A stretch of 64,000 nucleotides of DNA from Tubiluchus corallicola (lineage: Eukaryota; Priapulida; Priapulimorpha; Priapulimorphida; Tubiluchidae). The notes under the pieces were generated by a model. It saw only the letters and a list, made by a program, of their open reading frames with translations. It was not told the origin of the DNA and did not search any database. The DNA lies in assembly GCA_030141605.1 (NCBI GenBank), contig JAQGDQ010000008.1, positions 570,501 through 634,500 on the forward strand. The letters run 5' to 3'. Shown piece by piece: positions 12,801 to 58,632 of this stretch (position 1 is the first letter of the stretch; every line of letters starts with the position of its first letter). A program made the translations under genes and the position numbers.

Positions 12801-15800
12801 CTTGTACAGTACATTTAACTAAAAAAAGTAATAATATGTGCAGTGTTATTACTGGTACTATCCTGTGTTTGATAAATCGAATGTAATTAAACATGAAATA
12901 TATATGTACTTTAATGAAAAGGAGATTCATTTAAAAATAGAGATAACTGTAAGTGAATCAGCTCTTACCCTTGTGGTCATACTAAGACCTAGCAGAAACA
13001 TGACAAGGCAGCAACCAATCAAGATGAACAATTTCGATCTTTTCCAGCGACGAGTGATATAATGGAACTCATCAGAAATGGCCGTAACAACTGTCTCAAT
13101 CATCACAAACTGAAACAAAGTTTCGGTAAAAAATTAAAAAATACAGAAACAATATTAATCAAATAGTCAGTCCAGTAGAGTTAAGAATCCATGTTCAATT
13201 ACAAAATATCTGAAAAGGTTGTGAATAAAACTGCAAATAAAATTGTGAATTTGATGAAGAGATGACTCTGTATAATTTTCCTACAATTCATTTATGTTTG
13301 GAACTTTATTGGTAATCCTAATTTAAACAGAAAGGACAAAACGACATAGCACATGCATCATGGGATTTACATAACAATACATGATTCCTGAAACTACTAG
13401 TTTGGTTGAAGGGACTGTGACAACTTAAAATAGAAAATTATTTAAAAGGAATCTGTTTCCACCACCCGATAAAACAATTTTGAAAAAATAAGTAAATATA
13501 ACATTACCTGGCTGTCTAAGCCAAGGGTGAGCAACATAAAAAAGAAAAGAACTGCCCATAATGGTGATATCGGCAGTAAACTCAGTGCCTCTGGATAAAC
13601 AACAAAGGCAAGACCAGGACCTGAAAAACACGCAATAAAAATTCAATTGAATTTATGCGGTGCATTCACTAAACTAACAAACCAGAAAACAGACTAAACT
13701 GCACATTTAAAAATAAATTACCAAAAATATGTTATTAAATTTTGCATTTTTTCTTTTTTTCTTTTTGTTTATGCAATTCGCAATCCTGCAAGCTGGCATC
13801 CAGCACTCAACAGCAGGTCCTCCTGAACTTAGACAGTCGTGGCAAAATCGGAACCTGGCAAATTAACAAGGTTATAGCACAAAGATAAGCCACCGAACTA
13901 GCATAAGTATCCTATCTTTATCTGGAAGTACATACATCTTTTTATGCAGTAAAGAGCTAGAATCAGTACAGCAACTGAAACCACCACGAGTGAGAACTGA
14001 AACCACCTCGGCGAGTCAAGCTCAATTCATAAAAAGCATAGACTGAACTATTATTGCATTTTAGAGCACTTCTGTGACCATGTAGAACAAAGACTTGCTC
14101 TTCTAGTCTGATACCAGAGCAAGTACCAAAGTTTCTTCAAGTAGCACTCACAAAATCAATGCTCAGCTGCTTCCTTCTACAAAAGGTCTCTTACAATTTA
14201 AAGAACAAAAGGTGGAATATATCAGCTTAGTTCCATTACATGGATATAATCCCCTAACATACCTGAAGCTACTACATCTTTGACCTCTACTTTTGCCACA
14301 TGTGCCATATTGCCCACAACCGAGAAGACCACGAAACCAGCAAATACGCTTGTCCCACTGTTAATTAATGGCACCATGTATGAATCTCTGAAATACAAAA
14401 ATGAGACGATTACAATGCTGCAACGCTGCTTTTTACAGTTTATCAAGCTTATTCCAACATGCAAAAAATCCTTGCTACAAAACCTGCTTCTTTAGTGAAT
14501 GAAACCTGACACAAGGTGGCATTCACTAAAGAAGAAACAATGTTTGCTGAAACTGCACATCAGTCTCTTTCTTCAACAATCACAGCAATAACACATTATA
14601 ATGAAAACTACATTATATGTAAATATGCATCACCATTCAACATTATTACCACGATAATAGCGAACAGAAATTGCTAATCAAGGAAAGATTAGCAATTTTT
14701 CAAAGTAAAACAATTTTTAAGACACATCCGTTCCGCTAACTCTGTTAAAATAATTGGTAATTGAAAGTGGTTCTGTATAGTATATTGTTACCATCAAACA
14801 ATTTTCAAATTTTCCATTGCATAATTTATCCATATAAGTAAACACACGGCACACATTGTTTTAAGCTTTTCAACTATTATCAACCACTTCTGAGAATATT
14901 AGTTTCACCAACCGATAATGAAAAAGACACACCGTAACACATTGTTCCGGAATCTGTTATATGAAGCCATTGTTATCAAACCACCCCAACCAGGTCCCAA
15001 TGAGTAAAATATTTGTATGCAGGCTTCACCCCATACCTAAAAATGTAAACTTGCATTAATTAAACACTAATTCACGAAAAACTGATTAAAGACATCGGAA
15101 ATTGCAGCATTACGACTCTAACCTTCTAGGATCAGACAATGAACTGGCAGAAGTGTCACAGCCATGTTCTGATAGATATGCGTCCTTCAGCAGTGAGGTA
15201 AGTAACCAGAAGCAATAAAGTGATTAAAACCATTCAGAGCAATTACTGAACAGGCAGTCACCAATCCATTTACTGACCAACTCCTAACTAGGTACTTACC
15301 ATGACCACTTGACTATTACTCTCAAACTCTAAACTAAAGAAAATAATATAAAATGCCAAAAAATAACAGATGGATATTATCTATGGCACATGCTTTTAAA
15401 TCCATAATATGCAACTCTCCAAAAAGCGAAAATCATTGGACAACCCAAATGGAAAATTTTGGCAAACAACTCAAATCCTCCATGAAGAATGTAAACAGAG
15501 CCAGATTGTGCATTAGCAAACAATTGGTGAAAGGAATGGCTACTAATCTCAGCTGACAAGCGAAGTGGAACAAGTGAGAGTCATAAAAATTTCCCTTCTG
15601 GGGGACAAGTGTTTGCACAGTAGCTGCAGACCTTGGAAGATGCCAAAAAGCAGCAAGAACTAGACAAAAGCAAAAATTACACTTTCCTGGAAGCAGCCTA
15701 TTTAGGAATAACAAAGTTAATAAGTTCTTTTCCTAGTCACGGATCCTACCAGAGACAGCCACACCTTAACTTTCTTGAAACTAGTACCCTAAAATTGCAG

Positions 15801-18800
15801 TCCATCCCTCATGCTACCCTATGATAAGTAATGCTAACCTGTAATGCTGGTGCTATTAAAAATTCGAACCTGTTCTGGTGAGATTTAAAGCAATATCAAT
15901 TAAAATGTTTTATCGAAACATAACAGGCATTATGAGAACCGTTCAAGGTCAACTAAAAAACCATTAGTTCGTAAGCAAGGAAGGAAATTTTTTAAGCGTA
16001 TTCAGGAAACCGAATTCCTATTGGAAGACTGACAGACACATTTGAAAGTTTTGTTCAAATCATTGAAAGTCTATAGGACAAAATAAAACTTTAAAGAGTC
16101 AAGAAAAAATTAACAACTTACAAAGAACAATGCAAAACTGCCATTACTAACATACTTAAACCTACAATCCAAGGCACACGAGATGAGAGACACCATAATC
16201 CATTTTACTGTACATAGCCCATAGCCATCCTGCTATTGAATTCCTAATACCTCATTGAAATGCAAAGCACATCACAAAACAAGGAACATAATTATTATAA
16301 ACTTCATACTAGGCAAGCAATTTCATCAGCGTGACTGGATCTAATACGACTCGTAAAAACAATAATAAGATATCGAGCAGAAAACCTGAAGAAATCAAGC
16401 GGAAGTTAATCAAAATTTGTAGTTAATGCGTGATTATGAAAGCGTACTAATCAGCTATTCACATTCTAAAACAAAGATTTACTAACTATTTACCATTCCC
16501 AGCTAAAATTTTTAATAAAGGATAAAGTGCAGTAATGTTGCAGTGTAATTTGCATTTTCACTAACACATGCGGAAGATTTCTGTCATTAGACAATCGTAC
16601 CTAACAGTGACTTCATCCTTAACTGCATTCATGGACAGTTAACTAAGTTTTTAAGTTTACAATTAGAAGCACTAAAAATTATATTCATTGAAAAATGTAT
16701 AAAGTCCAAAATAAGTCAGTTTAAAGAAAAGCCTCTTTATATTACCTTACTCGTGGCACAGAAACAAGTTACTTAACAAAATTCATTTACAGTACAACGG
16801 AGGCAATATAAAAGCAGAAGCTGCTAGTGCAGCCAAACAACCATATCTAATGCATCCAGTAGCTTTTCTTATTAAAAAAAAATAAATACCTTGTAATCTT
16901 TTAGTAAAGTAAAGTTTGGCTTGAGGTAGAACTTGACCCCCGCTGCAGCACCGGGTAATGTGACCCCACGTATGAGCAGTACAAGCAAGATGACGTACGG
17001 AAACGTGGCAGTGAAGTATACAACCTACAACGAGAAGTACGTGCACCACTTCAATATACTTTGCAGTGACCTTCTGACAACTAATTTACAGTTTATAAGT
17101 TCGTAAAATCAAAAGTAGTGAAAGTGAGTATAATCAAAAACTTTGGAAAAAATTGTCAAAGCAATATGTACACGAAAATTTAAATTTCCACAAAAAGTAC
17201 ACTTTAAATTTTCCCAAATAATGTGAAAAGTCATGATATTTTAAAGAAAACTCATACACATTCACTGAACACTTTCAGTACTTTTATATAAAAAAGTGAA
17301 ATGATGCTTCAAAATCTAACAATACAATGATTTTATGAAAGAATACAGCAAAGGTTTGTTAAATTTATTCTAGAAACCAACAAAGGAGACAAAATGGCCT
17401 AGCTTTAAAATCTAAACTCATTTACATTTACTAGGTAATTTTCAGTAATAATGCTAACAAGTAAAGCACTAAGAAGAAAATATCAAATAATTATAAATCG
17501 AAATGAAGCTGGCAAAAAATGTTAGTTGAAGGATGCAAACAAAAAATATATAGTAATTGTTAATGGATAAAACCACGCATCAAATAGTAGCCACAAAATA
17601 CAAAATTTGCAGCAAAAATCTAATGAAAAACACCGGATAACTGGGATACCTACAAAACTTTGCTGTACTGCCATCTCTCGTGAATGAAGGCATGCAAAAT
17701 TAACTTATTTGCAAGAATTTCAAAGTAATTAAAATCTGGGATACAATAAATCTGACGACATTCTATAACACATAATTTAAATAAAACGCTATTCGATCAC
17801 TAGTTATGTTACCGGGTGTCGAATGTGGCCGGCACAGCACGGAACGGCATGAGCGTACACACTTCTACAGAACGAGAAACCTCTACAATTGGATCAAATA
17901 CCAGTAAGAGACAATGCGAAATTAATTACGCTGCATAAAACAAATGTTCTTTACAAAAGCTTAAAAATTTTACTAAATCACAATTAACAATTACGCAGAA
18001 ACTGCACAATGTTCAAAATTCATATTACGTCAAATTGCATACTGTATTTGTGAATATTTGACATACGTTTTGACATTAAAAAATCCGCTCGTATTAATTT
18101 TCAGTCACTAACTACAAACTGGTTAGTCTTCAATAATAATAGTACGTGTATAAACATGTATTATCCGTATATTTTTACCACAGATTAAAAAAAAATTACC
18201 ACACCATATAAATAGACTATTCATATTTTTCTTTTCAGATAACTATAATAATTGTTTTTCATCTAAGCACATGTGTAAAAAGCAAGGATAAATCTATAAA
18301 GGGTAATGCCTCAATATGAACAAAATTTTTCAAAAACGATAAAACAAACGGAAAAATTTGAATTTGCAAAGCAACCTTTTATGTTCAAAAATATTACCAA
18401 TACATTCAAGCTGCATTTTCCAACATTAAACTTTCGCAAAACAAAAAAACATAGCATGTTTAAAAAATGCATCAATTACCATAAAAATGACTTGTGTTAG
18501 TTTTAAACCATCACCATGCTAGTTTGATAGACTTAAAGAGAGCCAAGGTTGTAATGGAAACTCAAGCTATATTAAGTACCTTTCCTGAGGATTTAACTCC
18601 TCGGCAAACACAGCAGAATACTATGATCCAAGCAACAGCCAATGCTAGAAACATTTGCCATCTAACGCCATTTGGAGATTCAATGCCGTCCGAGACATCC
18701 AAGATGTAGCGTCTGAAAAAATAAGAATTTGGAAAACAGTAGTACAATAAATATGCTAATCTAAATGAGAGGACACTAAAACACTACAAATAATCATCTA

Positions 18801-21800
18801 AAATCCCCTAACGGGTTGGTGCCAAAGCTTCATTTGGGGTATGAATGCAGCTTCGCTCAACAAGAGAATTAGTGAGGGAGGGGACAATATGAATATTTCT
18901 TGGTGGTTACTCGTCTATTTACTAGTAAGGTTTACCACTGCTTAACTTTCAAATCCCCCGTGACTAATTCCTCCACTCAATATACTCTTTTTGGTATATT
19001 GCTTAAAACACTTTGATCAATTCTCTTGGACTAGCAAAGATTTTTTGGGGCAACAGAAAATGTTCGGAACACGATGATATCAGTGGAATGTTTGCACCTG
19101 CACCTGTTTTGCTCAATATTATTGAAAATATTAAATTATTTAAACAAGTGCTAAGGCCCTTCAATGTAGGACAACAGGCGAGTAGTCACAGTGTTTGTTT
19201 TCTGTACAATTATGCAATGCTGGACCCGACCAGTAATTGGATTCATGACCACAGGATCAGTTACCACATTCCTGCTGGCAGCTAACGTGGCTAACACACT
19301 GTTATTCATCTTAGGCTTAAAAAATTATCTATTGAAACGAGCAGAGTTTTGGCCTGCCACAACCACTAGTAGCAAGTCGTACCATTCAGTGCTGGATTCT
19401 GGCTTGTGCTTAAAAAATTATCTATTGAAACGAGCGGAGTTTTGGCCTGCCACAACCACTAGTAGTAAGTCGTACCATTCAGTGCTGGATTCTGGCTTGC
19501 GCTTAAAAAATTATCTATTGAAACGAGCAGAGTTTTGGCCTGCCACAACCACTAGTAGTAAGTCGTACCATTCAGTGCTGGATTCTGGCTTGCGCTTAAA
19601 AAATTATCTATTGAAACTAGGAGAGTTTTGGCCTGCCACAACCACTAGTAGTAAGTCGTACCATTCAGTGCTGGATTCTGGCTTGCGCTTAAAAAATTAT
19701 CTATTGAATCGAGGAGAGTTTTGGCCTGCCACTACCACTAGTAGTAAGTCGTACCCCACTCAGCGCTGGATTGTGGCTTGCCTAGTGTTGAAATGAAGAC
19801 ATTACCATTAACAAGACTAAACCATCACGTTTTTTGGCTTTGGCCTTTGACCATTCGAACCAAACCTGTGCCAAGATTAATCTGTTCTTCTATTTTGATT
19901 TTGAGACTTTTTAACTTTGTGGCCTTGGTCTTTGACCTTTTCAACGAAAAATCAAGGGTTTCCAGCTTTTACTCAGACACATTCCTGCACTATGTTTGAT
20001 GATTATAACTTGGTGTGATTATACCAAATTTGATATCTTTGTGTGGACAGACACACAAACTATAAAATGATACTAAACATCCCATTTACACTTCAGGTAC
20101 TGTGAGCATGGATACAAACAAATATTACCAAACAGATATGTATTTGTCAACGACTAGACCTCGACACCATCTGATTAGGAAGCTGGAGATCCTGGAGGAA
20201 GAGCTATAAAACGCATTTGCAAGTGAGGAAAAAAACAACTATTTCTCGCTTTAGTTTCTAGAAAAAACTATTTCTTACTCCCAAAACTCTTCAGATGGTG
20301 TCCTCGGCTTGACGGTCGTATTCGTAAAAGCGTCAAAAAATGTTTTATTTTCTCCAGAAGTGCGGTCCAAACAGTATATGGAGTTCCACCAGTTTCCACA
20401 GGTCTTCCATGGCACATCTCTAGCAAATGACTTATACATGTAAAACAGCGACCATGATAGAATGATGTTGTAGTACACGCACAGCACTGACGTGACGACT
20501 ACAGTTCCAATACCTACACCTACAACAACAGAATAAAATTATATTCCTTCTATTATTAATGAGTAACTGAACAATAGGGAAGAAAACCAAAACTGCAGTA
20601 ATAGCAAGTATATTTCATCAGGATTTTAAGTGTTACTCTATTCAGTTATTTGATAAAAAGAAACAATTATTATTTTCTGATTCACAATACAATTCTCAAG
20701 CCATTAAGGATGAAAGTGAAATTTAGATGATTTACAACTTCACAGCCAAAACAGCCAACCATGAAGATTAAACTTCATCAGAAAAGCTTCTAAGCCATGG
20801 TGCTTCTATCTAATAAACTACTACTAATAGTTTGACAGAGGGAGTTAATAAAGAGGAAAAAATTCTATAATGGGAAAGGAGAACCAGAGCATTTTAAAAG
20901 GACAAGATTTATGCTCTCTATGAAACCCTATCAACATGAACTAATCAGGCCTCTAAGTAACATCATAATGCACAATGAGGTACATTACTTGAAATATTTA
21001 ATACTAATGTTACTGCGCTTCATTGAGCCAACAAAAATATAACAAAATGTCAAAACACCTGAATAAAAAAGAGAAAAATTTGAAATAAATAACAGCAACA
21101 TCAACATACATGAACAATTAAACATACCTTTAAAAATTGGTGCTAATCGCCATATTTCTATTGCACCACAGCTGGAAAACTGGCCAATAGCAGTTTCCAT
21201 GAAAAACAATGGAATGCCGCAAACGAACAGTGCGAACATGTATGGAATAAGAAATGCACCTAGGAAAAAAATTATTGGTAACAAACGATTTAATGAAATA
21301 TCATGTTCAATAATAAAATTTCTGATCACTGAATGAAGTTAAGTAATGCTGAGGTTGATCAGTAATGAAAGACCTGGTTGAAGAACGACGCATCACATCC
21401 AAACACATACCTGTTGGAATGATGTCTCGATAATTAATTGAATAGGTGCTGAATACCAGCTTGCATAGTGTGTATAAAAAGTCGTCACTGGACTACCAAT
21501 GCCCCCAGGAGATTAGTTCAATGTCAAAAACAATTTTCTCAGATTTGAGATAGTAAAACTAACACGGGTATCCTCAAAATGTATGAGTGCTGAACAAACT
21601 AAATAACTAAAGGCAATTTTCATGAACAGTCACTCATCGATTTACAAATCAGACTTCATGGCATTTAACTATCATAGTCAAGCACTCAGGGTGACCATCA
21701 TTACTCTAACAAATAACATAAATGTGTCCCATAAAGATCAATACTATACATATTAGTGATATGAATGTATTTGGAAAAAAATTGTGTGGACAACAAATAC

Positions 21801-24601
21801 CATTTTTCGAGATCAAGGTCAAAAATTTACAAGAAATGTACTTTGATGGGAGACGGAATTGAAGTACAGTAGGTGAAATCCTATCAACAGTTTAACATGA
21901 TGTCCTTCTATACCACTTTGCCATCAACTGTCACCTAATTTGCTAGGTATCTCTTTGAAAACTCAACCATCGTTTAAATATGCGCAATTTGACCAGTTCA
22001 AGCAAACGCTTGCGGGTATGCATTTATTGTACCAAGGTCAATTTACTGCTGAGCTAAAATATACACCAGCATCCAACTAAGAAACTTTGACTTAGTAGTA
22101 CCACTTGTAATATTTTGTTCCACAGTGTCAGGGTGTAACTGTGGCAACTAGCGCAAAGTGGCGCTACAGTCTCAAAAAATAATAATCTATTGAAGCTAAA
22201 TATGCGCGGTAATAAAAAGATAAAGTGATTACAGCAAGTTTCGCTTTTTCACTTTCACGGCTGGAAGTCTGTAAAACTGACATCAGCAATCACAGACATC
22301 GTAAACTCTCTTATCTTTGTGAAAATGTAATGATGTGATTTCAAATATGTAGATGTGACCAAACTATATTGTTTAATTTTTGTAAACAACTCGCAACTTG
22401 ATGGCAGAACATATTACACAGATTGGTGTGGTTGAACCGGGTTCTGGCTAATTATTAATGATACCTCTACGATACGACAGTAAATCGGCTAAGACGGTTT
22501 AGTCACATTCAGATGCGAATACATCCTTCCTCAACACAAAAACGTCAGAGCAATATGTCATGTGAAACAACACAAAGGCAGTTTCCCGGCGAACACCCAC
22601 CCATTTTTCAAGCAGACCTGACACTCCGCAACTTTGCAACCAAACATGCATGAACAGCACTGCGGGTGTCTAGACGAATGCAGAAGTTTATCATCTTTTC
22701 ATTCCGGAAAGCAATCAAGGATTACGCCCATGAACCCAAAGCAATCAAGGATTACGCCCATGAACCCAACATCAGCGACCAAGGTTTGTTTAATTGGGCC
22801 TGAGATTAGTGTCAAAGGCAACACACGTTAGCAGATGCCGGCGGGCTGTACAGAACCGGAGTATTGAAAGAATGAATCGTCTTTAGAAATTATTCTAAAG
22901 TCTTGTAGTATTTCATTTGCAAGATTGGAAGGGAAGGAAAAACTGAAAACTTAGGGGGGTGCATAACCGTACAAGATTCAGCACAACTATATTTAAATTT
23001 ATAAAAAAACAATAGTTATCAATGTGAGCTCTAGTAACAAAAAGAAAATCATTTTATTTGCAAATGTAAACTGGATCCATTGATTGATCTGGCAAACATC
23101 TGGATACGAACATAAAAACAGAAATGTTTCACAAAGTTTTGCAGCCCCTGCTAGTAACTTCCTAAACAAATTCATTCACGTAAAATCACTTATCAAAAAC
23201 ACGTAAAATCCCTATCATAAACAAGCACGTGCGAGAACTTTAAAATCAAATCATTTAACGTAAACAAGTAGCCCGGGGATAGATTTATTTATAAGGATAA
23301 GTTTCAAACTCAAAAGCTTTAAAAACCAAGTTGCAAAATGACGATTTCAAGCGGATAAAGTTACAGGAGTCACGTTAGTGTTGCACGCATTACCAAATAC
23401 CAATACAATTTTTTACGTTTATAAGTAGGTTAAGTTTGGCTGTGATCTAGGCGGATGATGAGGTTAAATAGAAACACACTCTTGCTGGGTAAATGTACGT
23501 CAACAGTTGCCTCGTTTTTCTTTCTGTACTTGAAAGACTAGCAAAAATGCCGTCAGCTCAATGCATACTACTGTACAAGATGGAAAATGTCACGCTTAAC
23601 GTCAGGATTTTTTCTCTTGAAACAGACCTACTTGGTATGAGTTACGCGGGCGAAAGAGCGTCTATTTCTGGCATTGCCTAGTTTTAATACGCATGCACGT
23701 ATATAGAATGTCCATCAGTGATACTGTGACCACGAGGGGGGGGGGGGCATTCTTGTAAACACTACGTCACAATTGCTGTAACACAACGTCCACATTACAC
23801 GATTACGTGATTTACACGACTATATTATACCTATTAGGTTTTTAAAATTTTCTTAGCCAACATGAGCCGCATGGAGTCTTTCATGTTACGAACACCGACA
23901 TACTGCAGTTGTTTCAGTTCTCATTCAATAATTACATTAAACACCAACCGTTTTTTTTTCAAAAAAAGTAAAAATAGAAACTGAAATCACTGCATCGATC
24001 CTTTATAGTTTAACAGAACATATACAGCAATACTCAACATCAAACACAATAAACCTTGATTAAATGAACACGTCCCTAAATCTTGCTACATCAAAACTAA
24101 TATTATACACTACAAGCATTTATACAGGTGCTATAAAACACCCTACTATCAATAGCAAGTTGTGTTTCAAGTGGTGTTGATAATGGCCAAAACGGTTATA
24201 TTTTCAAAATAGTTAAAAATTAATAGTGTCTTTCTCGTCAACAATTTAAATACACCACAACATGGTTAAAGCTCTTTAATAACTCTTTATTACTCTTTAA
24301 TAAAATTATTAAACTAATAAATGCAACAAATATCTTGCTTACCTCCGCCATTACGAAAGCAAAGATATGGAAATCTCCACACATTGCCAATGCCGACAGC
24401 ATATCCGACACAACTCAAAAAGAAGTCCAACTTCCCCGACCAGTTACCCCTCTCCTTGTTTTCGTCTGTTTTGTCTACACCCCAATCCAGTTCCTCGCTC
24501 GACTGCCCCAGTGCTGCACTTCCATTTTGCATATTAGACTTTTCGTCTCTCTCCGATAATGGAATTCCATTCTCAACTTGTTTTTCTTTGTCAACTGTCA
24601 T
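9870..24601 (-). CDS. SLC6 family Na+/Cl--dependent transporter, amino-acid (GlyT/ATB0,+-like) type, complete, 13 exons
   Basis: Plasma-membrane symporter that moves a small amino acid or related solute with Na+ and Cl-. Exons in gene order: 24343-24601, 21128-21259, 20279-20513, 18580-18712, 16890-17024, 14933-15036, 14263-14387, 13508-13620, 12969-13109, 12124-12223, 10764-10876, 10337-10504, 9870-10103. All phases agree, giving 663 aa, normal for SLC6. An acidic N-terminus of about 50 residues precedes TM1, which has [15 protein letters not shown] (residues 66-80). TM2 has [14 protein letters not shown]. The second outer loop has the paired cysteines C169 and C178 and N-glycosylation sequons NKT and NTT. 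TM6 has YSLGPGWGG (309-317), TM8 has LGLDSQF, and after TM12 comes the GlyT/proline-type GWGPAVEP tail. The TM1 position that is Asp in monoamine carriers is Gly here, so an amino-acid-type substrate is expected, but the exact substrate cannot be read. ATG at 24601 is the only in-frame start near TM1. A splice acceptor (about 24648) just upstream suggests a 5'UTR intron. Confidence 0.96.
11716..11775. repeat. 27-bp unit, two tandem copies
   Basis: The unit GTGATAGATTCATTTAAAAA plus TAGCTGC occurs twice in a row in an SLC6 intron. A shorter piece of the unit (GATTCATTTAAAAATAG) recurs at about 12924. This is a small local duplication. Confidence 0.6.
13790..13870 (-). repeat. SINE-like tail copy (GCTGGATTC core), minus orientation
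   Basis: The complement reads GGTTCCGATTTTGCCACGAC, then about 25 bp, then TTGAGTGCTGGATGCCAGCT. This is the same order of blocks (TTTTGGCCTGCCACAAC, then the core) as the tandem array at 19316 and the copies near 29765 and 41120. It lies in an SLC6 intron, with only the tail present. Confidence 0.6.
15180..15300 (-). repeat. 5S-like SINE copy, minus orientation
   Basis: The complement contains TTGGTCAGTAAATGGATTGG, then TGACTGCCTG. This aligns closely with the 5S rRNA intermediate element/box C region (GGTTAGTACTTGGATGGGAG, then ACCGCCTG). A decayed tail (CACTGCTGAAGGACG) may follow. It is in an SLC6 intron. Confidence 0.6.
19226..19780 (+). repeat. SINE-like copy whose tail is amplified into five 93-bp tandem units
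   Basis: A 5S-like block (ACCAGTAATTGGATTCATGA, about 19229-19260) is followed by five head-to-tail 93-bp units starting at 19316, 19409, 19502, 19595 and 19688. Each unit is a 31-bp A-rich linker (starts CTTAAAAAATTATCTATTGA) plus about 62 bp of SINE tail (TTTTGGCCTGCCACAACCAC, then the core CATTCAGTGCTGGATTCTGG). Units differ at only a few bases, so expansion is recent. Because 93 is a multiple of three, one ORF of 201 codons (19191-19796) runs through all copies as a 31-residue repeat. It lies antisense in an SLC6 intron and is not evidence of a protein. Confidence 0.85.
22709..22769. repeat. 30-bp unit, two tandem copies
   Basis: The 30-bp unit beginning AAGCAATCAAGGATTACGCC is present twice, identical, in the first coding intron of the SLC6 gene. 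It is a simple local duplication. Confidence 0.7.
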
Positions 24602-29383: not shown

Positions 29384-29599
29384 TGAGCATCGGAAGTCAT
29401 TCAGCGATATGACCTTGAAATGACATTGGATAGAATTTGCACGTACTTTTGCCAATGGAATTTTCCTAGAATATTTCCCAAGTTTTATACAAATATGTTA
29501 GTCCGCATCAATAGTTTTGATCAGACACCTACCCACACGAATTCATTAAATGCAGTAGCTTGTAACTTCGTGCGGTACCTAAACAGTTTAAGGTGGGGT

Positions 29600-29790
29600 A
29601 AATAAACGACTGTCATACGCGGGTACACCGTGACGAAAGCTGAGCAATGCTGATGCTGGTGAGTGAATGAATGGGTGACACCCAGGTTACATGGATAAGG
29701 CAAAGTCTTGATAATGAGCCAGGCTCCGGTCTTACCAAAAACATTGCCATAATCAATTAGCAGTCCCTATCGCTGAATGCTGGATTGCCA
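29600..29790 (+). repeat. 5S-like SINE copy with tail core
   Basis: GAAAGCTGAGCAATGCTGAT, then GCTGGTGAGTGAATGAATGG and GTGACACCCAGG, aligns with the 5S rRNA box A to box C region. About 75 bp later comes GCCATAATCAATTAGCAG, then TATCGCTGAATGCTGGATTG, the tail core shared with the 19316 array. It is the clearest copy with both parts in the plus orientation. Confidence 0.7.
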
Positions 29791-32316: not shown

Positions 32317-32826
32317 TGACAAAATTTTCCACTGCAGAACATGACTATTAGCAACAAGTTAGTGTGCTTTAACGAAATTTGTTAGCACGCGTTTGAAATA
32401 TGATTATTACTGTGTATTTAAAATTGATCAGCCCTTATTGCCATAATATCTAATATCAAATAAATATCTAATTAAAAATCAATACCTGTTTTAGTAACCA
32501 ATAAAAATTATGTACGAAGATTAAAAACTATGTATTAGAATCCGCATTTGGTAACAGTTCTTCAGCGCCTCCTTTCTTTAACAAACTAGCTATGGCGTTA
32601 GTAACAATTTTTCACATAAATAATATGGCTCATTCAACAATCAATGTCAACTATGAAACAACCTATTTATTACTAAAAATAGCAAACAAGCAGAAACGTT
32701 TTAAATTACCAAACTCGCTCGCAGAAAAAAATTTCTTGGAAATGTTCTACTTGGCTAAACAATACCACAGATACCAACATCAAACAGTTGACAAAATTTT
32801 CCACTGCAGAACATGACTATTAGCAA
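32317..32826 (+). mobile_element. 5'-truncated LINE insertion with 38-bp target-site duplications
   Basis: The insert 32355-32788 (434 bp) is the same length as, and differs at three positions from, the LINE 3' tail at 28796-29229. It is bounded by two identical 38-bp direct repeats (32317-32354 and 32789-32826, beginning TGACAAAATTTTCCACTGCA). Short microhomology (AA) at the 5' junction fits target-primed reverse transcription with abortive 5' truncation. There is no poly(A) tail. The perfect duplication indicates a young insertion. Confidence 0.85.
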
Positions 32827-35972: not shown

Positions 35973-38900
35973 TCACGTATCAATTTTACTGTCATCAAGC
36001 TGCTTCGTAGCCGGCATGTAAACTTTAAAAGAGAATCCGGAGTTTGGAAATGAGCCCTATGAATAAGAAAAAATAAAATAGCAAAAACGACTTCCACCTT
36101 AGTTAAAGGCAGAAGGGCGATATTTTCTGACTGCAGCTCATTTTGACATTATGGTCTAAAATACAGATTTCATTATTAATAGCAACTGTTTCCAAAATGT
36201 TTCATAAATTTAAATTACAGCTTACAAACTTAACTAATGACCAGGAATGCTAGGAAGATTTCATGCAGGGAATAACTTTCCAATAGCAGAAATCTTTCTA
36301 CGCACGTTTGCAAAAAGTGCAATCATTGCGGTATGACACTGACAATACAAACACAAAGATATGACAGCAAAGTTTAAATTCTCCATTTCAGAATTTGTTT
36401 ATTACACCAGGCTGATTTTACAAGGCAAATATTGATGCCTGACAGTCACATAGTTATCCACAACTCTACTAACTCTGGTACAATGCTTATTTTTTGTGCA
36501 ACAGATTTTCCAGAAATATCGTCCATTAAAAAGATATGACTGTATCTTTTTAATAGATATAATCAATAATATAGTCAAGGCAATAAATTCTTTAACTTAT
36601 ATCTTAAAAAACAATTTGCCCATATTTGATACTGTGGACCGATTTAAGCAGTAATCAAAAGTTTCATATTGGTTTCCTTTAAGCATGATATTAATATTAT
36701 TATACCTTTGGGGAAAACAATTTGTTCAGAAATATCACAAAACTGCCATATTCAGTATCTAAAGGTACGTGGTATTTTTTCCCAAATTTCATTTAGTGTG
36801 AGAGCTAAAACTAAAAAAATCAGCCAGTCTTGCCTGTTCAATTAAACAAACATTCAGTTCTTCACAAATTAGCCTTTATTTTCGTGTTTCTGCAGCCCTA
36901 GCTTTTGTTTACCACACATTATTATGTACAAACACTTATGCAACTTTAAAAAGAACAACAGAACTTACCGGGTTGAAAACGAGACAATCAGTCATTTTTT
37001 CGCTGAAAGAGTCATACTTGTCTGCACACACAATCACATCTGGCACGGGGTACAGCCTCAGGGCAGCATCGTACCCCCAGTAGACTGGAGACACATGGAG
37101 TGGTAGTGGACACAAGTGACCTTGAGAAATGATCGTTTTCACAAACTAGAACAAAAATACTTGTTTGTAACTTATATTTCTTGACACAGGGTCTCATGAA
37201 ACAAAGTAGTGTAAATATCAGTATTTTACACTATACGTTTGTAATAATTTTGCACCATAAAGTGTTAGTTAGCATATGCACCTTAATAAATATTGATATA
37301 CAAAAGGAAAAATGTAATACAAATAAGCTTAAAAAGTAACTGCAATACAGCATTTGGAATCCGATAGATTTGTATATGCACTTATGGAAATTTGAACATC
37401 TATCGCAAACTATAGTAGTCGAGGAAACTTTTGAACTCTGCATATTTCCTTTTAACTGGAAATTTAGCAAAGCCGACAACAGGCTTGCTATATAAATGAA
37501 TGAAAGACGGAAGATGCTAGCAGAATCTTTACTCCTCTAGTTCCTCAACACAGACAGTTGTTTGTAGGACTCACTTTCCTGCTGCTACTCATATTTTTAT
37601 CCCGGTCATTCCCAGATACAGAATGGCTCACTTATATACAGAGTTTTTTACTTGGACTTCTAATCTATTGAACATTTTAGTAGAGTACGGCTTCCCTGTT
37701 AATCACGTACTTCAAGAAAAACATTAGAAAATACTTCCTATCCCAGGCAAACACTTACAAGAATTATGTTTTCCTGGACCTGCATTCACATTTTCAATTT
37801 TCTACCGTAGCTGCTTACACAGACTGACAACTCGTCTTGTTTTGGGTTTATTTGCATAAGGAAAGTCAATGTTACTCACGACAACCTATAAATCACAGCG
37901 TTAGTAATCAGCACGGTTGTGCAGCAAACTTACATGATTAGTGATTTTAGCCGTTGATGTTGGGAAACGTACGCAGTTGCGACACATCTTCTGCACGATG
38001 TCCTCCCTGAACACCACAATCTCCTGAGTACAGTACTGTATTCGACAGGGGTTCGATGCAAACGTTACATTTGGCATCCTATCCTCAATTTCTTTCGTTA
38101 TTGTTCGGGGAAGAGACGGCCTGCACACATAAAAAACAACTTTTTAATGAAACTACAGGTTATGAAGTTTTGCAATTGAAATTATATGAAAAAGACACCA
38201 GTTTTAAATAGGCAGCGGCCATACAAACTTGAGACAATTTCAGAAATGCAGCCTTCTCTCTAGACTGAACTGAGCAATCATCCATTCTCTGACCAGGTTT
38301 GGTACTGCTTGACTTTGGTTGCAAAGCACTTCACAGTTCTAGTAATCACTGAGCTAATCGCACTTACAATGCCTGATGAAATGCTCTATTAGTCATCAGG
38401 CATTGTAAGTGCGATTAGCTCAGTGATTACTAGAACTGTGAAGTGCTTTGCAACCAAAGTCAAGCAATACCAAACCTGGTCAGAAAATGGATGATTGCTC
38501 AGTTCAATACTCCATCTGAGCAGTTTCATCTGCCTTACTGTCTGTCAAAAATTATCAGGACAAGGGAAGATGCATGTGCATCTAAAAGTGTCTGAATCAC
38601 CCCTGCCAATTCAGCATCTCAAACTTATTAGCCTTGATGATTCCAGTCTAACCACAATTACCTGCATAATGTAGATATTGTCAGTGAATGCTGGAAACAT
38701 GTTTCCAGAGTTCCAGCTACAGAGTTTCCCAAATTTTTGAAAAACAGCGCCATCCAGTTATAGCATATAGAGTAGCAAACCATAACTAACTTATAAAGGG
38801 CTAAAACTTCACGCAATAATACACATAACTACATTAGGCTATCACTCTATGTTCTGAATCAGTAGTCTGAATGTGCCATATCTCAGTGATTTAAAAAAAT

Positions 38901-41900
38901 GCTCTAAAAATGTATTTTCATAATTTAGATCTTTTAGAATTAGCACTAGTTTTTGCTTTTACGCTGGATTTCAAAGATAAACCTCAAAAAAAAATTACAA
39001 AAATCAAAAATACAGTCACCTCGGCAGAATTTTGCCAGGTCCGGGATCGAGTGGTCCTGGCACAAAAACAAACTTGCTGCCATCCACAAGACTTGGAAAT
39101 TCACTTAACAGTTGAGCAAAATTGTGCAAAGATTCTAGAAGAAACATATAAATATGTAAAAAGCATGTTATCGGGAATTGTTATCATCGAAACAAAACTT
39201 CACAGTTAAAATTCAATTTGAAAAGAAACTGAAAACTGGAACACCGAAGAACATAATAAGTGCTAAATACATAGGTCTCACCTTTTAATGTTTTATAATG
39301 ATTTGGACCATACGGCTGTGAAGTGAAATTCCCACATAAAACAAAACAGGTCGGTGGAAATCCAGAAAACCCAGAAAACAATATTCTTAGTTTTTCTATA
39401 ACCTGAATTAAAATCAAACATGTGATTGCTACAATACAAATTAAATAAATTAGTTTAAGAATAAAAACTATTAACTAAAATGTTCACTTTACAACAGTTA
39501 GCCACATACTAAACCATTTTTTCCAAGCTTTCAATTATGACAAAGCACTTATGACTTACTTTTAACAAAGCTGATGGAAAGCAGTTTTAGCAACTGGTTT
39601 ACAAAAAGTGAACTATCTCTATTTTAAATTTCAGTGATCAGTTTCAATTAATCAGTGATCAACCTCCAGAAACCAACTTTGAACTTAACATCACTTTTAC
39701 AGGATATATTAACCCACAATTATCGAAATTTTGAAACAAAACATGAATGAAATACAATTCAACACACTTCCAAGTCAGAATCCAGCATTGAACAATGATG
39801 TATTGAATAAAGAGCAAGTATTGAAAATGGTCACCCATCCAATCCCTGACCAGCCATCCATCACTTAACTTCAATTGCAAAACATTGTCTTAACTGCAAT
39901 CAGACTTTGTTGTTGAGTCATTACTTATTTTTCATGGATAGGTAAAAACTATCCATTACTCAGATGTGGATTTGAACCAAGGACCTTTAGATTATGATAT
40001 TAAATGTACAGCATGTTACTAATGATGTTTTATTGTGATTTACTATCTATCGTCTTATTTTCAAAATTGTCATCTTCAAGGTTGATTTCAACAGTTTTTT
40101 TTGCACAGACTAACCCAAACAATACCAAAAGGCTGAAGGCAAAAAAAGTGCAAAGTTAGAAAGTTAGATATGAGTACAGGCAAGGATCTATTGACGTTCT
40201 TCTTGAAACGAAATAATTTCAAATACTATATGAGTGTGTTCTGCATAAAACAGTAAAGCTGTTACAGTTTCTAGCATACATGAGTAGGACACTGTAATAA
40301 GAAGTTACCTTGACTTGATCAAGCCAAATGTCAGACAAAAACACGAACATGGCACCATCATTTTGTTGCTCTAGCTCCTGCAACTTCGTAGACACCTTTA
40401 CACTGAGTTTGTTTGGACCCCCAAAGAAGTTTACGTTGCCAAAGAAAAACCTGAGAAGGGTGAATAAGCTCAATACAATGAGACCAAAACATACTTGGAC
40501 AGTTGAGTACAGACATAAAATAGCTGTGAAGTACATTAACCTGTATCGTTAACAAGTTTAAAATAGCTTTAATTAACCTGCATTTATTCATTTATGAATT
40601 CTTAAAATCAAAAGTTAAACAGACCATGCAAGAGATACTTCTACAGCAATAGTAAACTGAAAGTAATTTCTATTCAAGTTAAATCGCAGCAAGGTCAATT
40701 TTAGATGCAAGACACAAATACGAAGCTAAGGTTAAAACCGCTGACTTTCTAGACACCTGGTAATTTTGGCTGCTTCTGCAGGTGGGAAACCCACTGCATT
40801 TACATGGAATGTCTTATCTTCGTACCATCCCTCCGCTAGGACAAAACAGTTTTCCGTGAATAAGCCTGTGTGAAAGACCGCATTTGACAGATCCAGAGGA
40901 ACTGCACCAGTCGGGTCCTCCAGAGAAAAAACACCCTGAAATAATTAAAATCATGTAGACACACAGAACAACATGCCACAGTACAGAGATCTAATTCAGA
41001 AGCTAGTTTAACTCAAAGACAGCAGGCCACACAAGTTGATACAATTTTAAAGAAACAACAATACAGTAGAAGTTATGATAGCATATTTTGCGTGTTTTAC
41101 GCAGTGTTTTACACTGCGAGCCGGAATCCAGCAGTAATTGGCAGAGCCTACTCAATGTACATAGTTGTGGCAGGACCAAAACCTAGTCCCCAATCCTCTA
41201 CGTGTCAAATCAACTAATGGCAAGGTGACTTAACCACTGTTTACAGTCTCCCTCAATAAGGTAAATGGCCAGAATCAAAAATACTCAGCATAAGTGTTGA
41301 GCATTTATCCATTTACTAAATGGGCTTGGAGTTGCTCAAATTTGATCAGTAAACATACAGTGTTCAAAGACTTTTACTTGACAAGTAAAAGTATAAAAAT
41401 AAAAAAACATTTTTAGAGCAGCAACCCATATAAAACCAGTTTTGGCAAAGACAAAAATTTCCTATTTTATGTAGCCAACTTGATAGCTAGGTAACAGAGC
41501 TATAAATAAATAAATTACGTTTTCCACTCAGAGTCCACTATTCTGAGTTTGGATGTACTGATATCATAATAAGACAAATATCTAAGATAGTAAGGCTCTC
41601 CATTACAAATCAAAATTGAATCAAAATGAAGTTTTATATTTTGAATTCAGATTGTTAGGGAACTTATAAAGACAATAAAAGTAACTGGAATTATGCATCT
41701 AATTTACTAGGCACAAAACTCTCTGTTATTAACTTATCTGATAAAGCTAAATACTTTTAACACTAAAACTTATTTTAAACTCAAATTAGTAAAAGCAAAA
41801 TCGATTTCGAATTTGAACATTCGACGAACGGCCTAACAAGTTGTGATAGGACATTGGCAGAAGCAACGGCACTTACCTACAATCAGCATTCATAAAAATT

Positions 41901-44900: not shown

Positions 44901-47900
44901 TACAGTAAAGCACTTTTTAAACCTACCCCACCCTTCTCCTGAAAACAGAAGTGTGCGTCTGCTGTGCCAGATAGTGCAGTATCGCTAGAAAAAAATCTTC
45001 TGAGAACAGAACATTAAGAAACGCATGGGAAGTTTAGGGTTCCGACATTTTATTGTAAATGTATATATACATTTTAGAAAACGTAACTAGATGAGATAAT
45101 GACAAAACACAGCATGAGAACCACAAAAGATATATGTAGTGCTATTAAATGGAGTGAAAAGTGTAATTCTATTTCAAGGATGTTTAGTTAGTTTCTTATT
45201 AAACTTTTGCACTATGCATGGACAAGGACAAGAATGGTACGCTTTTTACTCATGAAACCTCCAAGTTAGTCCTTCCTCATCAATGTGCAATGCAATTTGT
45301 TGCAACCAGTCTATCAAGTATCTGCTCAATTATAAAAGAACAATACAACTTTGATCAGTAGGACCAATTCATACCATCATCAAAAAAAAAGCACAAGGAA
45401 TAAAAACTGGTAAAAAAATTAGAACTTTAAATCATAAGTTCTTGCTGATAATAAAAATGTGATTTTATGAAACAGGATTAAGTCACATTTGCTTAAACCA
45501 TATTTTATGTGATATCGAAAAGACACTTAGCCAGCAGCTTTATTTTATATTTTATCATGTTTGTTTGTTTATCAGACGTCAGGCCACTCACAGATAGGGA
45601 CACACTGACTGGCAGCCAACCAACCAGTTTGTTCCAACCAAAGCCAGACAACCACCATTGCTAGGTGGCCTACATGCATGCTAAAGCTTAACTGAAGCAA
45701 CTGAAAGTGGAGCTATGCGAGCTCGGTGTTTGAGAATGTTTAGTGTTTGCATCCGCAATTTTTCCATGTCAAGTAGTTTCAATTGTCATTTTTGTATTTC
45801 AAATTATTCTCTTATTTAGATATCCACTGCACTTATACAGTTCTTGGAACAGTACTAGCACCGCTCTCTTTACCGCTAAGATCGATAAAGTTTGGAAAAC
45901 TTTGGCTAATATTCATTCTCCAGGAACGTGGTCCCGATCACAGGAACAATATCTACTGCCAATCATTTTTGTTTGTTTTTTTAATCACATGGCCCTGGAA
46001 GAATTTTCTGGGGCCATTACTTTATTTGAGCAACCTGCCTCAGGCTGAGTGCTAGTGCCTCTCATGTTCTAGTTTTAATTTTAAATACAAAATAGCAATT
46101 ATGTACTTCCTTTAAAATGGTACCTTCCTCGTGTTTAACACAAAATTAAAATGTATAATTAACGCGTTAAAAATTGTTAGGTATGTGTCACCACGCCTTT
46201 TTATTGTGCTTGCTCCCCCTATCTTTAGAACACAGCTACACCCCTGGTTCTGCTTTTTATAATATTTGAGGTTTTGCAGATTAGTAAAATGCTATTTAAA
46301 CTGATAAAAATAATTGCCTGCTAATAAATACAATAATATTAACAGCATTAATGTTGCTTAATGTCTTGTCTTCAAGCTCATTCTTCATATAGCAACTTCA
46401 TTTAGAACAATGAATTAACAACTAGGGCCGTCTTAGCACATGGGCACACTAACCAATTGTTCTGTGTGGGTACACCGTTGCCCCAGTGCTTTGCCGGGGG
46501 CCTATAACACTATTAAGATGGGTCTGTTGACAACATAATTATGGCAACTACAATCCAATTAAAGTGATATGGTTCATACATTACAACCCCATTTATCAAT
46601 CTTTCTAATTTTCAATATGACAGATCTTCAGTAATATAATCATTTAAAGCAATACCTGAAATTTCTTGTTAGCTTCCTCTGGAAAACAGCCGGGAATAAC
46701 AGGAGTAAATAAATCATGTCTTGAAGTCCTCTGTACAAAAAATAAACAAAACTTAGATATAATTATAGGCACACAGACTTAAACCACTTTTTGTCTTTTT
46801 ACAACTGTTTCCAATTTCCCTGATTTTAGCCCCATTTTTATCATTTTCCCTGACTTTTTAATGTCTTTCCAACAAATTATCTTTTTCCCTGACTTTTCCA
46901 TGACTTTCCAGGATAGCCTGTATTTTCAAGGATTTTCCCTGCCTGTGGGAACCCTGTAAATGGATGACTCGTTCCCAAAAACCTTTCACAATGGTCTGCA
47001 TTGTGCAAATACAAAAGAAATTTTACCTGATACATAATTTTGTATCGATCGATAAAAATGTCGGCTTTGTCTTTTGCAGGACCGTGTAGACAAACGTCCG
47101 GGGAATTTAATACTTCATTCCTGAAAAAGCCAGTTAGTTTTCTTTTATCACAGCAAATCAAAACATATATTTGCATTGACCATATCCTGGAAAGCAAAAT
47201 TTTTTCTTTTTCATTATGAATGTTTTCGAATATTAGCAAAAATGATAAACCCATCTTACGGTAAAAATTTCTTTCTATCCTGGACGTACGTAAACCGTGG
47301 AATTGCAAATGCATCTATAATTGTCAAAATCTGTTCCCTGAAACATGAAATTAACATTAATAATTTACAAGTCATAAAATGCACATGCAAAATTCAATGG
47401 ATTGTGGGTGTATTTGGTTTTTCATTCATAAAAAAAACTACATATAACAACAAAATTTGTACTATTGGTGGTAAAAAATTTCTTACCCTTTATCATCTTC
47501 AGAATGACTACACTCCTGCACTGCAGCAGCTACAGTAGCCTTGTCAATTACAGATGAACTCACTGCAATTAAAAAATTTAATACGAAAGGTCATGCTAAA
47601 GTTGTTACAGTTAACAATTTAGCCACCAAATCAATACAGGAAGCACTGAATTGACTTGTTCTAAAAGCTAACCAGGAAAAAACTAATCAAATGCAATACC
47701 ATATAAAGTGCGGTCCTTACTCTCTCAAAAAGATAAACAGTCATAATTAGTATAAGTATGATCCCAAAGCAAGATATGAACCTAGCTGTCATCCATGCGC
47801 TAATCAGCCTTGGCGTTGCTTAACTTCAGTTGCTAAGCACATATTGCAACCACTCAAACCATTCCCCCCTAAGGATAACCTTGCACATCGGTAATGTGAT

Positions 47901-52244: not shown

Positions 52245-53204
<960 letters not shown>

Positions 53205-53318
53205 TATTTATCATTTGTATTTATGTGTTTTATGCTGTATGTCTTTGGTTTAGCGTTTTTTTCGATATTAAATAGAAGCTGTTTGGCACTGAAAGCTGTC
53301 ATCAAATCGTTTAAATAT

Positions 53319-53609
53319 TTATAAAGAAAAATTAGTTAATGGAATTGGAAACTGGATTCTACAGTGTGATTTTAGTTTTTCCCTGTTTGCTGTAGTTAAA
53401 TACTTTGCTCTTGTTGTGAAACCAAGGACGTGTTTTAAAGCGTAATTTTGGGACACTTCTAGCCTGTTTAAAGAAGTTTTAGATATATTTGAGAGTAGGT
53501 GGCAGCCATACGTTAAGTGGGGCAAGATCATGATTTTATATATTAGTAGTTTTGTTTTTACATTGAATTGTCCTTTAATTTGTTTCATGCAACAAAGTGT
53601 AACCTGCAA
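53319..53609 (-). mobile_element. LINE reverse-transcriptase thumb-region fragment
   Basis: The minus-strand frame reads KTKLLIYKIMILPHLTYGCH, then LNRLEVSQNYALKHVLG. This is the usual 'Y-K-ILPHL-YG ... LE-QN-AL--ILG' pattern found after the reverse-transcriptase palm of Jockey/CR1-like elements. It lies just outside the hAT right end and is isolated from any other LINE part in the same orientation. Confidence 0.7.
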
Positions 53610-54224
53610 GTAATTTCTATGCCAGTTAAATTAAAACAATGCTTTCATAAAATTTGGGACACGTTTTTGCGTGTTCTTGTTGCATATTTTTGCAATTCCG
53701 TATAGTTCCTGATGACGCATGTATGGGGTGTACAATAACGCTATGTTAATCTAGCAGCTGGGGTAAATATGAAAGAAATTTAATAAAGAAAGAACTTGCT
53801 ACATTACAAATACATAGAGTCAATTCCATTATATAACAAGACAAGTTTGTTTACATCTAAGCGTTAAGTATATAACATAAGTATCTCATCTTAGCATTCT
53901 GCCTACAAGATTTAATTATTGCCTCCATAGTAAATCTGCATACAGGTAAATCGTACTGAGTTGCTAACTGGAATCTCTAGTGTTTACAACTTATACACTC
54001 TGCATTCTCCTCACTTCGCCGAAATAGCTTCTACACACTTTTATGTGACTCTGATAATAACACACAACAAAGTGGTTTCAACTCTGACCTGGATTCTCAG
54101 AACTCATGTTAAACACGTCTTAACAGCTTGACGACCAGGGTTCAACCGCCGCCGTTCTCTTCCCAAGATCCCAAGTGAATTAAGATTCTGATAAATACAT
54201 CATAGACTGACATCACTAATGTCA

Positions 54225-56214: not shown

Positions 56215-58561
56215 AATTATAAAACACGATAATTTGTACATTCGTGATACTGCACCAGGCACCAAGAGATTCTCGGCTCGGCAAGCGTTGCTCGCGTAGC
56301 GTAGCCTGACATCACCGCAGTAACCACGAACCTGATAGCTGTCATTGTATTATCACTACGGGACAATCGCGCGTGCTCGACATTCCTGTGTCCTGCCTCA
56401 CAATGTCCTGCAGTTCCATGTTCCTCACTTTGTACCATCTTGCCATGTACAACCTCATCATGGTGCATTGTGCTGTGCGATACTTGGTGAGGTGGTACAT
56501 GGTACTCTGCAGTACACAGTGATGTCGACCAAGTGCTGATTTGTAGTACCTTTCGTTTTCCAAGTAGTCCATAGCAGAGTCTTATATGTTTTTGGTTCTT
56601 TTAAATATTCAACAGATAGTCTCCTATTACAGGTTTCCTCGAAGGAAAAACCATGTCTTTTCTGAAGTTGAACTCATCTGAGAGCATGTTAGAAAGCTTC
56701 AGCAGTAAAACTGTGATTTAAAAGCAGCTCGCGTAATTAGTCAAATCAGTTTATAAAGTCACGACCGCTTCATGCTTTTGCGCTCTCATTATGAACGAAA
56801 AACGGCATCGTTCGATTACCATGCAATATAAGCAAATATCCGGACAGGTGTTTGAATTAACTTTTTTGCAGCCTACAATTACAAGTAATCCAAACTGTTG
56901 AACAAGAGATTGAAATACTGTTTTTTGGCATTTCAAAGAGTCACTATGAAATGAAAACCAGTTACCAACGATAATATAATAACCTCCAACTCGGCTAGTT
57001 AATGCTGACAAAGTAACAAAATAATTATTTTAGCAAGCTAAAACTGAACTCTGTAAGCTAAAGTAACCCACCCGGCAGCTATAGTATACCTGTGGCCTCA
57101 AAAGAATTTCATGCTTATGTGTAATTATATTATGTGTAGTACTTGCACATTTTGAGATGTATTGAGCTATGTAAGCACTTTAAAATTGTTGCTAATATTG
57201 TCCAATGACAAATTTTTACACAAACGCGGTTAAACACAAAGATTTAATCAACTAGAATAGGGGAACATCTCAGTGAACTACAGAAAATTTGTTGTGCAAG
57301 TCTTCTTGCTGTCCATTAGCTTATGTCATTTTTTTCAAATATACTGGCAGCAAGGTTTGTTTGGCAACAGCAAGGTTTGTTTGGTGGGAAATAAACATTA
57401 TTTAAATTTGTTTTACAACTTTGAGCTAGGATTCTTTATGCGCATATATTATGTGATAATTTCAACATTTCTCAACGTATATTAAAATATAATGAATGTT
57501 ATTCGAGGATTGGTTTTAAGGAATTTGAATTTTTCAGTTACTCGCACATTGGCAGAGGTGTTCGTTGTAGCTTTTTCTTTATAATATATGAGTAACTTGA
57601 ATTTTGTTGTCCCCAAGTAATGCCATTAATATTGACTTATTGGCAGCTTGGTCAGCTGAGAAAGTATGTCAGTAATCTGGCTTTTTACATGACATTTAAT
57701 GCAATGTTGCCTATACTGATGGTTGATTTAAATCGACCAAAGACAATGGTTTTGACTTTACAATTGTAGTTAACCTTTTACTAAATTTTGTGACTTTCAA
57801 ATTCGAGTCTTTTGTGAGCCGATGTGTTTAATGCTAGGTTTCACCCATAACTCAATACATTTATAATTTGTATTGTACTGTAATGTAAGTGTTGTAGTGT
57901 TATGTAATTTTGGTATATGCACTGCCAGCTTATGTTTGCACATTGATGTTGTATTACATTGTCTTGCTTATTTGGTTAATAGTGCTAGGCAAAATTGAGA
58001 AAAAGACAAATTTTAAAATTTAATTTTTATTTCATGACGTTGAGTTGAATGAAATAGGCTGATTTAACCATCAAATCGAATCTAATATGCATACTTATTT
58101 CGAGTAAAGCAGAATTTTTTCCATTTTTGTCTTAAGGTACTTTTCTTTCTCATTAATGTGGATTAAAATAGGACTCAAATAAATAAAAAGCAGTTTGCAG
58201 AAATCGTGTCTGCAGAATTCATCTGAATAAACCAGCCTTTTCTAAATCAGCGTGGGGTGTGGATTCAGCTATAGTATTTCAATTGCATATTTTGTTCACT
58301 TCATTTCTGTTGGCAGTCAACCTTTTTACAATTATTCAAATATGTTTGACAATGATTTTGTTAGTTCTACTGTTAGAATTTCAAACATTATCACCAGCAC
58401 TGATTGTCAGTGCTATCATTTAGGTTATAGGCGTTTATATTTAGTGTGTGTGAATTTCTACTATGTATTTTTAAGTTATGTGGTGATCATTTGCATCAAT
58501 AAAATCTTGCTGTATGCTCTTTTATTTATATACATGCAAAGCTAAATTAGCTTGTCATTTT

Positions 58562-58632
58562 TGTATAGTCTTGAGAACCAGAATCCAGCACTCAATGATA
58601 GGGTTACTATAGTGGTTGCAGCAGCACAAGTA
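58562..58632 (-). repeat. SINE-like tail copy, minus orientation
   Basis: The complement reads CTGCTGCAACCACTATAGTA, then CCCTATCATTGAGTGCTGGA and TTCTGG. It matches the tail of the 29600 copy (AGTCCCTATCGCTGAATGCTGGATT) and the 19316 units. No 5S-like block is visible upstream of it. Confidence 0.6.

Follow-up and report, generated by a model that had tools for sequence, protein, structure and literature searches.

An old SINE-like repeat family with a 5S rRNA-derived segment in the priapulid Tubiluchus corallicola

The closest described relatives of the repeat reported here are short interspersed elements (SINEs) of the SINE3 kind, such as zebrafish SINE3, SINE3-1_TC, HaSE3 and PxSE4/PxSE5, in which box A, intermediate element (IE) and box C derived from 5S ribosomal RNA (5S rRNA) lie near the 5' end and are followed by an unrelated body and a 3' tail (PMC3272025, PMC8010984). 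The body and tail of HaSE3 are common to HaSE1, which is derived from transfer RNA (tRNA) (PMC3272025, PMC8010984). SINE3 elements are reported in some insects (PMC7245038) as well as in vertebrates, and a fungus has 5S-related SINEs (PMC5063351). DeuSINEs form a superfamily whose families differ in their heads, some of which are of 5S and others of tRNA type (PMC3747384). According to an argument of Kapitonov and Jurka quoted in PMC3272025, the dependence of type 1 promoters on upstream signals would hold back SINEs derived from 5S. Here we describe a dispersed repeat with a 5S-like block and a shared tail in 64,000 nucleotides of the Tubiluchus corallicola genome (contig JAQGDQ010000008.1, positions 570,501 to 634,500), which as a whole is referred to as the window.

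A dispersed repeat with a 5S-derived block

Our analysis makes it probable that these copies belong to an old SINE family of ~330 nt with a 5S-derived 5' segment, which would have been transcribed by RNA polymerase III and copied by a long interspersed element (LINE) via its tail. The initial annotation, made by eye, had proposed a dispersed family at about ten loci and this was confirmed with a profile built from copies outside the window (67 rows, 66 distinct; gathered with queries made from window copies), which matches all 10 listed places and 11 copies, the place at 38266 holding two. Expectation values (E) range from 1.6e-45 to 1.8e-10 with the exception of a tail piece at 39793-39752 (E=0.006), and the reversed window gave 0 matches. 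This window-free profile additionally finds copies starting at 1453, 5594, 18950, 21697, 22637 and 35012. In a leave-one-out test using window copies only, which included the unlisted 22642 and 18955 and left out the second 38266 copy, 12/12 were recovered, the worst case being 29630, recovered as two pieces with E of 0.0018 and 0.0027, and all others having E of at most 6.9e-7. At E<1e-5 a full profile that includes the window copies covers 4,125 bases or 6.4% of the window, and the copies are short and dispersed on both strands, as those of SINEs are.

The same family is found throughout the assembly. A consensus built from the window copies matches at least 41 places with a best E of 3.0e-28 (40 of 328 first-look candidates were scored), and queries made of the tail only (98 nt) or the head only (118 nt) each match at least 40 places (401 and 329 first-look candidates, respectively). 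When up to 2 mismatches are allowed, a 22-base pattern from the tail matches the genome 361 times, a count that takes in tandem units and duplicated contigs, versus 0 for the reversed control. Exact family patterns have 0 matches in viral and prokaryote contigs, as expected since the repeat is eukaryotic. From 135 matches, one was kept per shared central 40-mer to give 90 consensus rows (84 distinct), among which the remaining near-identical rows are two true duplicates, tandem units and a palindrome.

The resulting consensus reads, in order, AGGTGAA, an A-box motif (TAGCCGAGTGG), 19 nt, the 5S block with box A, IE and box C (ACCAAAGTTAAGCAATGCCGAGGCTGGTCAGTGAATGGATGGGTGACCGCC), a B-box match (GGGTTCAATAC), a body of ~140 nt, a tail of ~75 nt carrying GCCACAACCATC and TTGAGTGCTGGATTCCAGCTTGCAGTG, and an A-rich 3' end (ATTGTATAAAAAAA) of the sort typical of SINEs. 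Anchored alignment indicates that the 5S block and the tail are parts of one element with a common body between them. We sampled 30 of the at least 40 places matched by the tail-only query and dropped 5 identical loci; the 5S block is present in register at 15 of the 25 that remained (one of the 15, L055, being the window's own 41362 copy) and the other 10 begin later, so that the co-occurrence of the two blocks suggested by the initial annotation holds.

An alignment of the consensus with a host 5S gene covers 5S nt 45-104, where 48 of 60 letter pairs are identical and there is one 2-base gap. It scores 65, versus a maximum of 33 in 2000 shuffles (0/2000 as good) and at most 42 for 2000 segments drawn at random from the window, which may themselves contain family copies. 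The reference used for this score was one 5S gene only (L093) of two retrieved, among the four best-scoring of the assembly at 119.8 bits. The window-free consensus gives the identical score, and human 5S scores 53, which places the source closer to the host's 5S. In a blind scan of the window, in which 200-base tiles of both strands were compared with human and Drosophila 5S, scores of 31-34 were reached by the 11 best tiles where the best of one shuffled window is 26; nine of these 11 tiles, all scoring at least 31, lie on six family copies, namely the listed ones at 39801, 29601, 15201, 47701 and 33001 and a new one at 22501, and an additional new copy at 18801 scores 27. Tested segment by segment against the better of the two 5S references, 5 of 11 copies reach the floor of 300 shuffles (p=0.0033) and 3 of 11 lie at 0.02-0.03, while 13790, 41110 and 58562 are not singly significant. 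At the level of sequence alignment we thus regard it as shown that the block, which the annotation had called 5S-like, is derived from a 5S rRNA gene, approximately nt 45-104.

Of the 90 rows, 79 have 100 or more comparable positions; their median divergence from the consensus outside CpG is 24.9% (range 16-40%), and the family is therefore old, as the appearance of the copies had first suggested; those in the window are decayed relics of an old SINE-like family. Identity is highest in the 5S box A stretch (82%), followed by the B-like motif (79%), tail (76%), body (72%) and head (70.7%, the lowest of the larger regions), with the spacer inside the 5S block the worst at 66%.

Promoter motifs, mobilisation and rival explanations

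The A-box motif begins 30 nt upstream of the 5S block and fits the A-box consensus in full. The B-box match GGTTCAATAC lies just downstream of box C, where it covers the final letters of the 5S alignment, with GGGTTCAATAC fitting the first ten B-box positions. The element therefore carries the A and B boxes of a SINE2 (the latter over those ten positions) in the order A box, 5S box A/IE/C, B box, body and tail. None of 5000 shuffles had an A followed by a B motif at 25-110 nt; 281 had A alone and 37 had B alone. When only rows with an ungapped motif are counted (37 and 41 of the 90), the A box is kept at 9 or more of 11 positions in 31/37 and the B box at 8 or more of 10 in 32/41, versus 0-4 copies only when the motifs are slid by 7 or 12 columns, although this conservation is not independent because the same copies made the consensus. 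The motifs stand 71 bp apart in the consensus where 30-40 bp is usual (PMC7279448). Judged as motifs, putative promoter-type elements near the 5' end, as expected of a SINE transcribed from within, are well supported.

A tRNA-like head in front of the 5S block had been proposed from A and B boxes upstream of the 39765 copy. The order stands in part, in that the 5S block of the consensus is preceded by an A box and ends in a B-box match, but the boxes at 39765 are not family features: this copy aligns only from 39886 and the Rfam tRNA model has no match in 39700-40100 at E<=10. The 48-nt head was compared with 39 distinct tRNAs (of 40) from the assembly and the best, L114, a tRNA-Ser by its anticodon as read by eye, reaches p=0.18; the comparison is a poor one since many of those tRNAs look bacterial. 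The candidate tRNA descent of the head is not well supported. Among the tRNAs at L095-L134 (e.g. contigs C1761, C188, C1716 and C402) many top scorers are bacterial-looking by eye, and the assembly therefore probably includes bacterial contigs.

RNA polymerase III would have transcribed the SINE from its internal elements, with TFIIIC probably acting on the A and B boxes such that the 5S segment would need neither TFIIIA nor the upstream signals of 5S genes; this step is the least certain of the account and we give it about an even chance. A LINE-encoded reverse transcriptase would then have recognised the tail and inserted copies of the RNA at new sites. The box A of 5S genes and that of tRNA genes may substitute for each other. 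It is plausible, and we propose it tentatively, that the promoter is nested, with a 5S internal control region behind a tRNA-type A box and a B box that would have arisen from 5S sequence by a 3-nt insertion (GGGAATAC to GGGTTCAATAC), so that a captured type 1 promoter turned into type 2 and freed the SINE from TFIIIA and upstream signals. The 5' 147 nt fold at -59.1 kcal/mol versus -43.6 +/- 4.0 kcal/mol for shuffled sequence (0/500 as good) with a 13-bp stem that pairs the 5' end with nt 134-146, and the whole consensus folds with z=-2.88 (1/100 shuffles equally good).

A number of observations weigh against a mobile SINE with this history, beginning with the p value of the head against tRNAs given above. 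Rfam found no 5S in 33000-33350, 39700-40100 and 20 genomic loci and no tRNA at SINE copies there, the lone weak tRNA match (L005, 930-1002) lying away from them. The copies show no covariation in support of the consensus fold, their paired cells being equal to those of shuffles, though copies so decayed inform little. Target-site duplications, which the initial annotation had looked to at the consensus ends, are weakly indicated at best: among 35 copies reaching both ends, none of them a duplicate of another, 2 have one at p=0.0034 where ~0.12 are expected, one of these (L065) is in simple-repeat-like DNA, the mean flank score is barely raised (6.29 versus 5.99 for mismatched flanks) and searches for exact matches, window copies included, found no excess over chance. 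The sole convincing case, at L034, is 13 nt long with 1 mismatch and adjoins both ends. No LINE reverse transcriptase was recognised by eye in the longest open reading frames (ORFs) upstream of tail-only loci, where no profile search was made.

The reading nearest to ours, differing from it in the promoter only, is that of an ordinary SINE3, 5S-headed as in insects and fish, in which the A- and B-like boxes are chance or by-products of 5S. It shares the well supported 5S origin, and both the B-like motif, sitting where 5S reads GGGAATAC and needing a 3-nt insertion and nothing else, and the lack of significant tRNA similarity in the upstream 48 nt sit comfortably with it, so that we consider it a serious possibility if somewhat less than an even one. 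A SINE3 would however start at the 5' end of 5S, whereas here the alignment stops at nt 45 with a full A-box match in conserved surroundings and other sequence upstream, and A followed by B at promoter spacing was absent from all 5000 shuffles. More doubtful is the view that the 5S block is the conserved central domain of several SINE families with differing heads, already named (Deu, V, Nin, Meta, Snail, MESC and others): the low identity of the head would agree with this, as would the leave-one-out matches of a 5'-extended model that begin at or near the 5S block, but a single head consensus was recovered from many copies, and we think it unlikely.

Solo long terminal repeats (LTRs) of a terminal-repeat retrotransposon in miniature (TRIM) of the Ajax or Cassandra kind, with a 5S promoter fragment in the LTR, would also be dispersed and 5S-bearing, and Ajax LTRs likewise keep only the box A/IE/C part of 5S (PMC10886601). 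Two same-strand copies do occur at L005, L021, L041, L043, L054 and L081, all outside the window, but no such locus has two near-complete copies as paired LTRs would, and the four measurable pairs are 0.55-0.61 alike versus a median of 0.59 for any two members and are therefore unlike pairs of LTRs. Given that the 3' end is A-rich, and with a sole convincing flank repeat of 13 nt rather than 5, a TRIM is very improbable. Least credible of all are dispersed 5S pseudogenes or chance likeness to 5S. The genome does have at least 47 5S matches above the cut-off (12,963 first-look candidates), yet the pseudogene reading is contradicted by the body and tail that the copies share and that do not align with 5S, nt 1-44 of 5S being moreover absent from the alignment, and chance by the 2000 shuffles of which none reached the observed score. 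We thus retain the old SINE family as the explanation.

Copies in the window and their surroundings

Coordinates of the copies are from the full profile (373 positions) and spans from the window-free profile are added where they were listed. The annotation had assigned one or both blocks to each locus; all loci match, with corrections noted below for 13790, 15180, 47755 and 19226. A near-complete plus-strand copy with head, 5S block (GGTCAGGAAATGGATGGGGGACTGC), body and degraded tail lies at 33021..33332 (profile 7-337, E 6.6e-44; window-free 33037-33327, E 2.2e-34) and another, with the top score in the window, at 38399..38714 (plus, profile 13-338, E 3.6e-53; window-free 38410-38698, E 1.6e-45). 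The latter has an inverted partner at 38265..38373 (minus; window-free 38361-38264), the second 38266 copy, which consists of head and 5S block only, and the two SINE 5' halves form a head-to-head palindrome at 38266..38506 with arms 94.65% identical. Permissive Rfam matches to microRNAs (MIR2600, MIR395 and others) at 38.3-38.4 kb fall on this palindrome and were therefore not taken as microRNA genes. At gathering threshold Rfam found nothing in the whole window, and ARAGORN gave no match.

Both blocks are present on the minus strand at 41086..41362 (profile 44-360; window-free 41359-41090), 58552..58817 (profile 49-358; window-free 58807-58554) and, newly found, 22371..22647 (profile 50-360; window-free start 22637), and on the plus strand at 29581..29788, a copy with an internal deletion (window-free 29589-29689 and 29704-29788). 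The plus-strand copy at 19164..19406 (profile 19-329; window-free 19167-19406), the former 19226 locus, likewise has both and runs into a tandem array derived from the tail, with four more units at 19409..19808 (plus, profile from 234), each with the SINE tail at a 93-bp period. This array, at 19310-19808 and with the SINE tail within its unit, is apparently a small satellite born from the end of the SINE, of a similar kind to PcH-sat, a limpet satellite that has been traced to a Nin-SINE (PMC11121367).

The remaining copies are partial or were absent from the first list. On the minus strand the 15180 copy (15118..15331, profile 14-246; window-free 15324-15117) has head, 5S block and body and the 47755 copy (47718..47866, profile 24-181; window-free 47856-47718) head, 5S block and a body fragment, both without tail in the aligned part, while the 5'-truncated 13790 copy (13753..14003, profile 112-365; window-free 14004-13756) has the tail and no 5S block. 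The 39765 copy, also minus, is represented by its 5S block at 39811..39886 (profile 49-128; window-free 39885-39811) and its tail at 39752..39793 (profile 307-347; window-free E 0.006). Further copies that had not been listed are those at 1453..1728 (plus, profile 25-348, matched also by the window-free profile), 35013..35258 (plus, profile 73-358; window-free start 35012) and 18789..18964 (minus, profile 40-247; window-free start 18950), the 3' half of a copy at 5593..5734 (plus, profile 195-361; window-free start 5594) and a degraded copy at 21508..21697 (minus, profile 38-268), weak in the window-free profile at E 3.3e-4. A 5S-like spot at 21801 on the plus strand, on which the other two of the 11 best tiles of the blind scan fall, was rejected as a family copy by the follow-up of that scan and by the full profile; the stretch GTACTTTGATGGGAGAC at 21838-21875 (plus, score 33) is 5S-like and lies outside this SINE family.

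The window sits on contig C215 of an assembly of 343.5 Mb in 2344 contigs and has a GC content of 35.3% and a CpG observed/expected ratio of 0.61. Its coding content includes a TMEM70-family ORF, a gene for an mRNA cap methyltransferase and sodium:neurotransmitter symporter exons, the last being four minus-strand stretches within 10310-24619 that match this family, apparently as exons of one gene with long introns, and several SINE copies sit between them. Other features are a C-terminal fragment of a hAT transposase (52638-52952, minus), an ORF at 53322-53630 that by eye is like the end of a LINE reverse transcriptase yet has no Pfam match, a 439-bp direct repeat (28791-29229 and 32350-32788, 99.1% identity) and a tandem array with a unit of ~50 bp (43978-44402). 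Elsewhere in the assembly, identical stretches of ~3 kb occur on different contigs, as shown for L011/L012 and L029-L032, and in a group of 13 loci (L072-L080 and L082-L085) the central 40-mers of both SINE copies are common to all; these are either duplicated contigs or recent large repeats bearing SINE copies.

Comparison with known 5S-bearing elements

If the nested promoter is real, flanking a 5S segment with A and B boxes would be a natural way around the limit of type 1 promoters and a directly testable instance of one RNA polymerase III promoter type becoming another. The range of part orders among chimeric 5S/tRNA SINEs would be wider, and the family would possibly be a 5S-derived SINE in an animal lineage beyond vertebrates and insects. 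In the literature searched, which most subscription papers fall outside, no SINE was found in which A and B boxes flank a 5S segment.

Compared with SINE3, the present family is alike in having a 5S box A/IE/C segment near the 5' end, an unrelated body and a 3' tail, and differs in a 5S match that starts only at nt 45, in an A box ahead of this match and in a B-box match after box C. AmnSINE1 has 5S, then a tRNA-related part and then the Deu domain, whereas in the present family the A and B boxes enclose the 5S part, and it is by this part order alone that the two are set apart. In Yarrowia, tRNA-5S dicistronic genes place a tRNA-type promoter ahead of 5S sequence, but these are functional yeast genes and the present family is a repeat. 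The Ajax and Cassandra TRIMs resemble it as non-autonomous retroelements with a 5S promoter, of which Ajax keeps only box A/IE/C (PMC10886601), and differ as LTR elements, with 5-bp duplications in Ajax, from a family whose tail is A-rich and in which LTR pairs are not evident. Among the related elements compared here, the T. corallicola repeat is unusual in the order of its parts.

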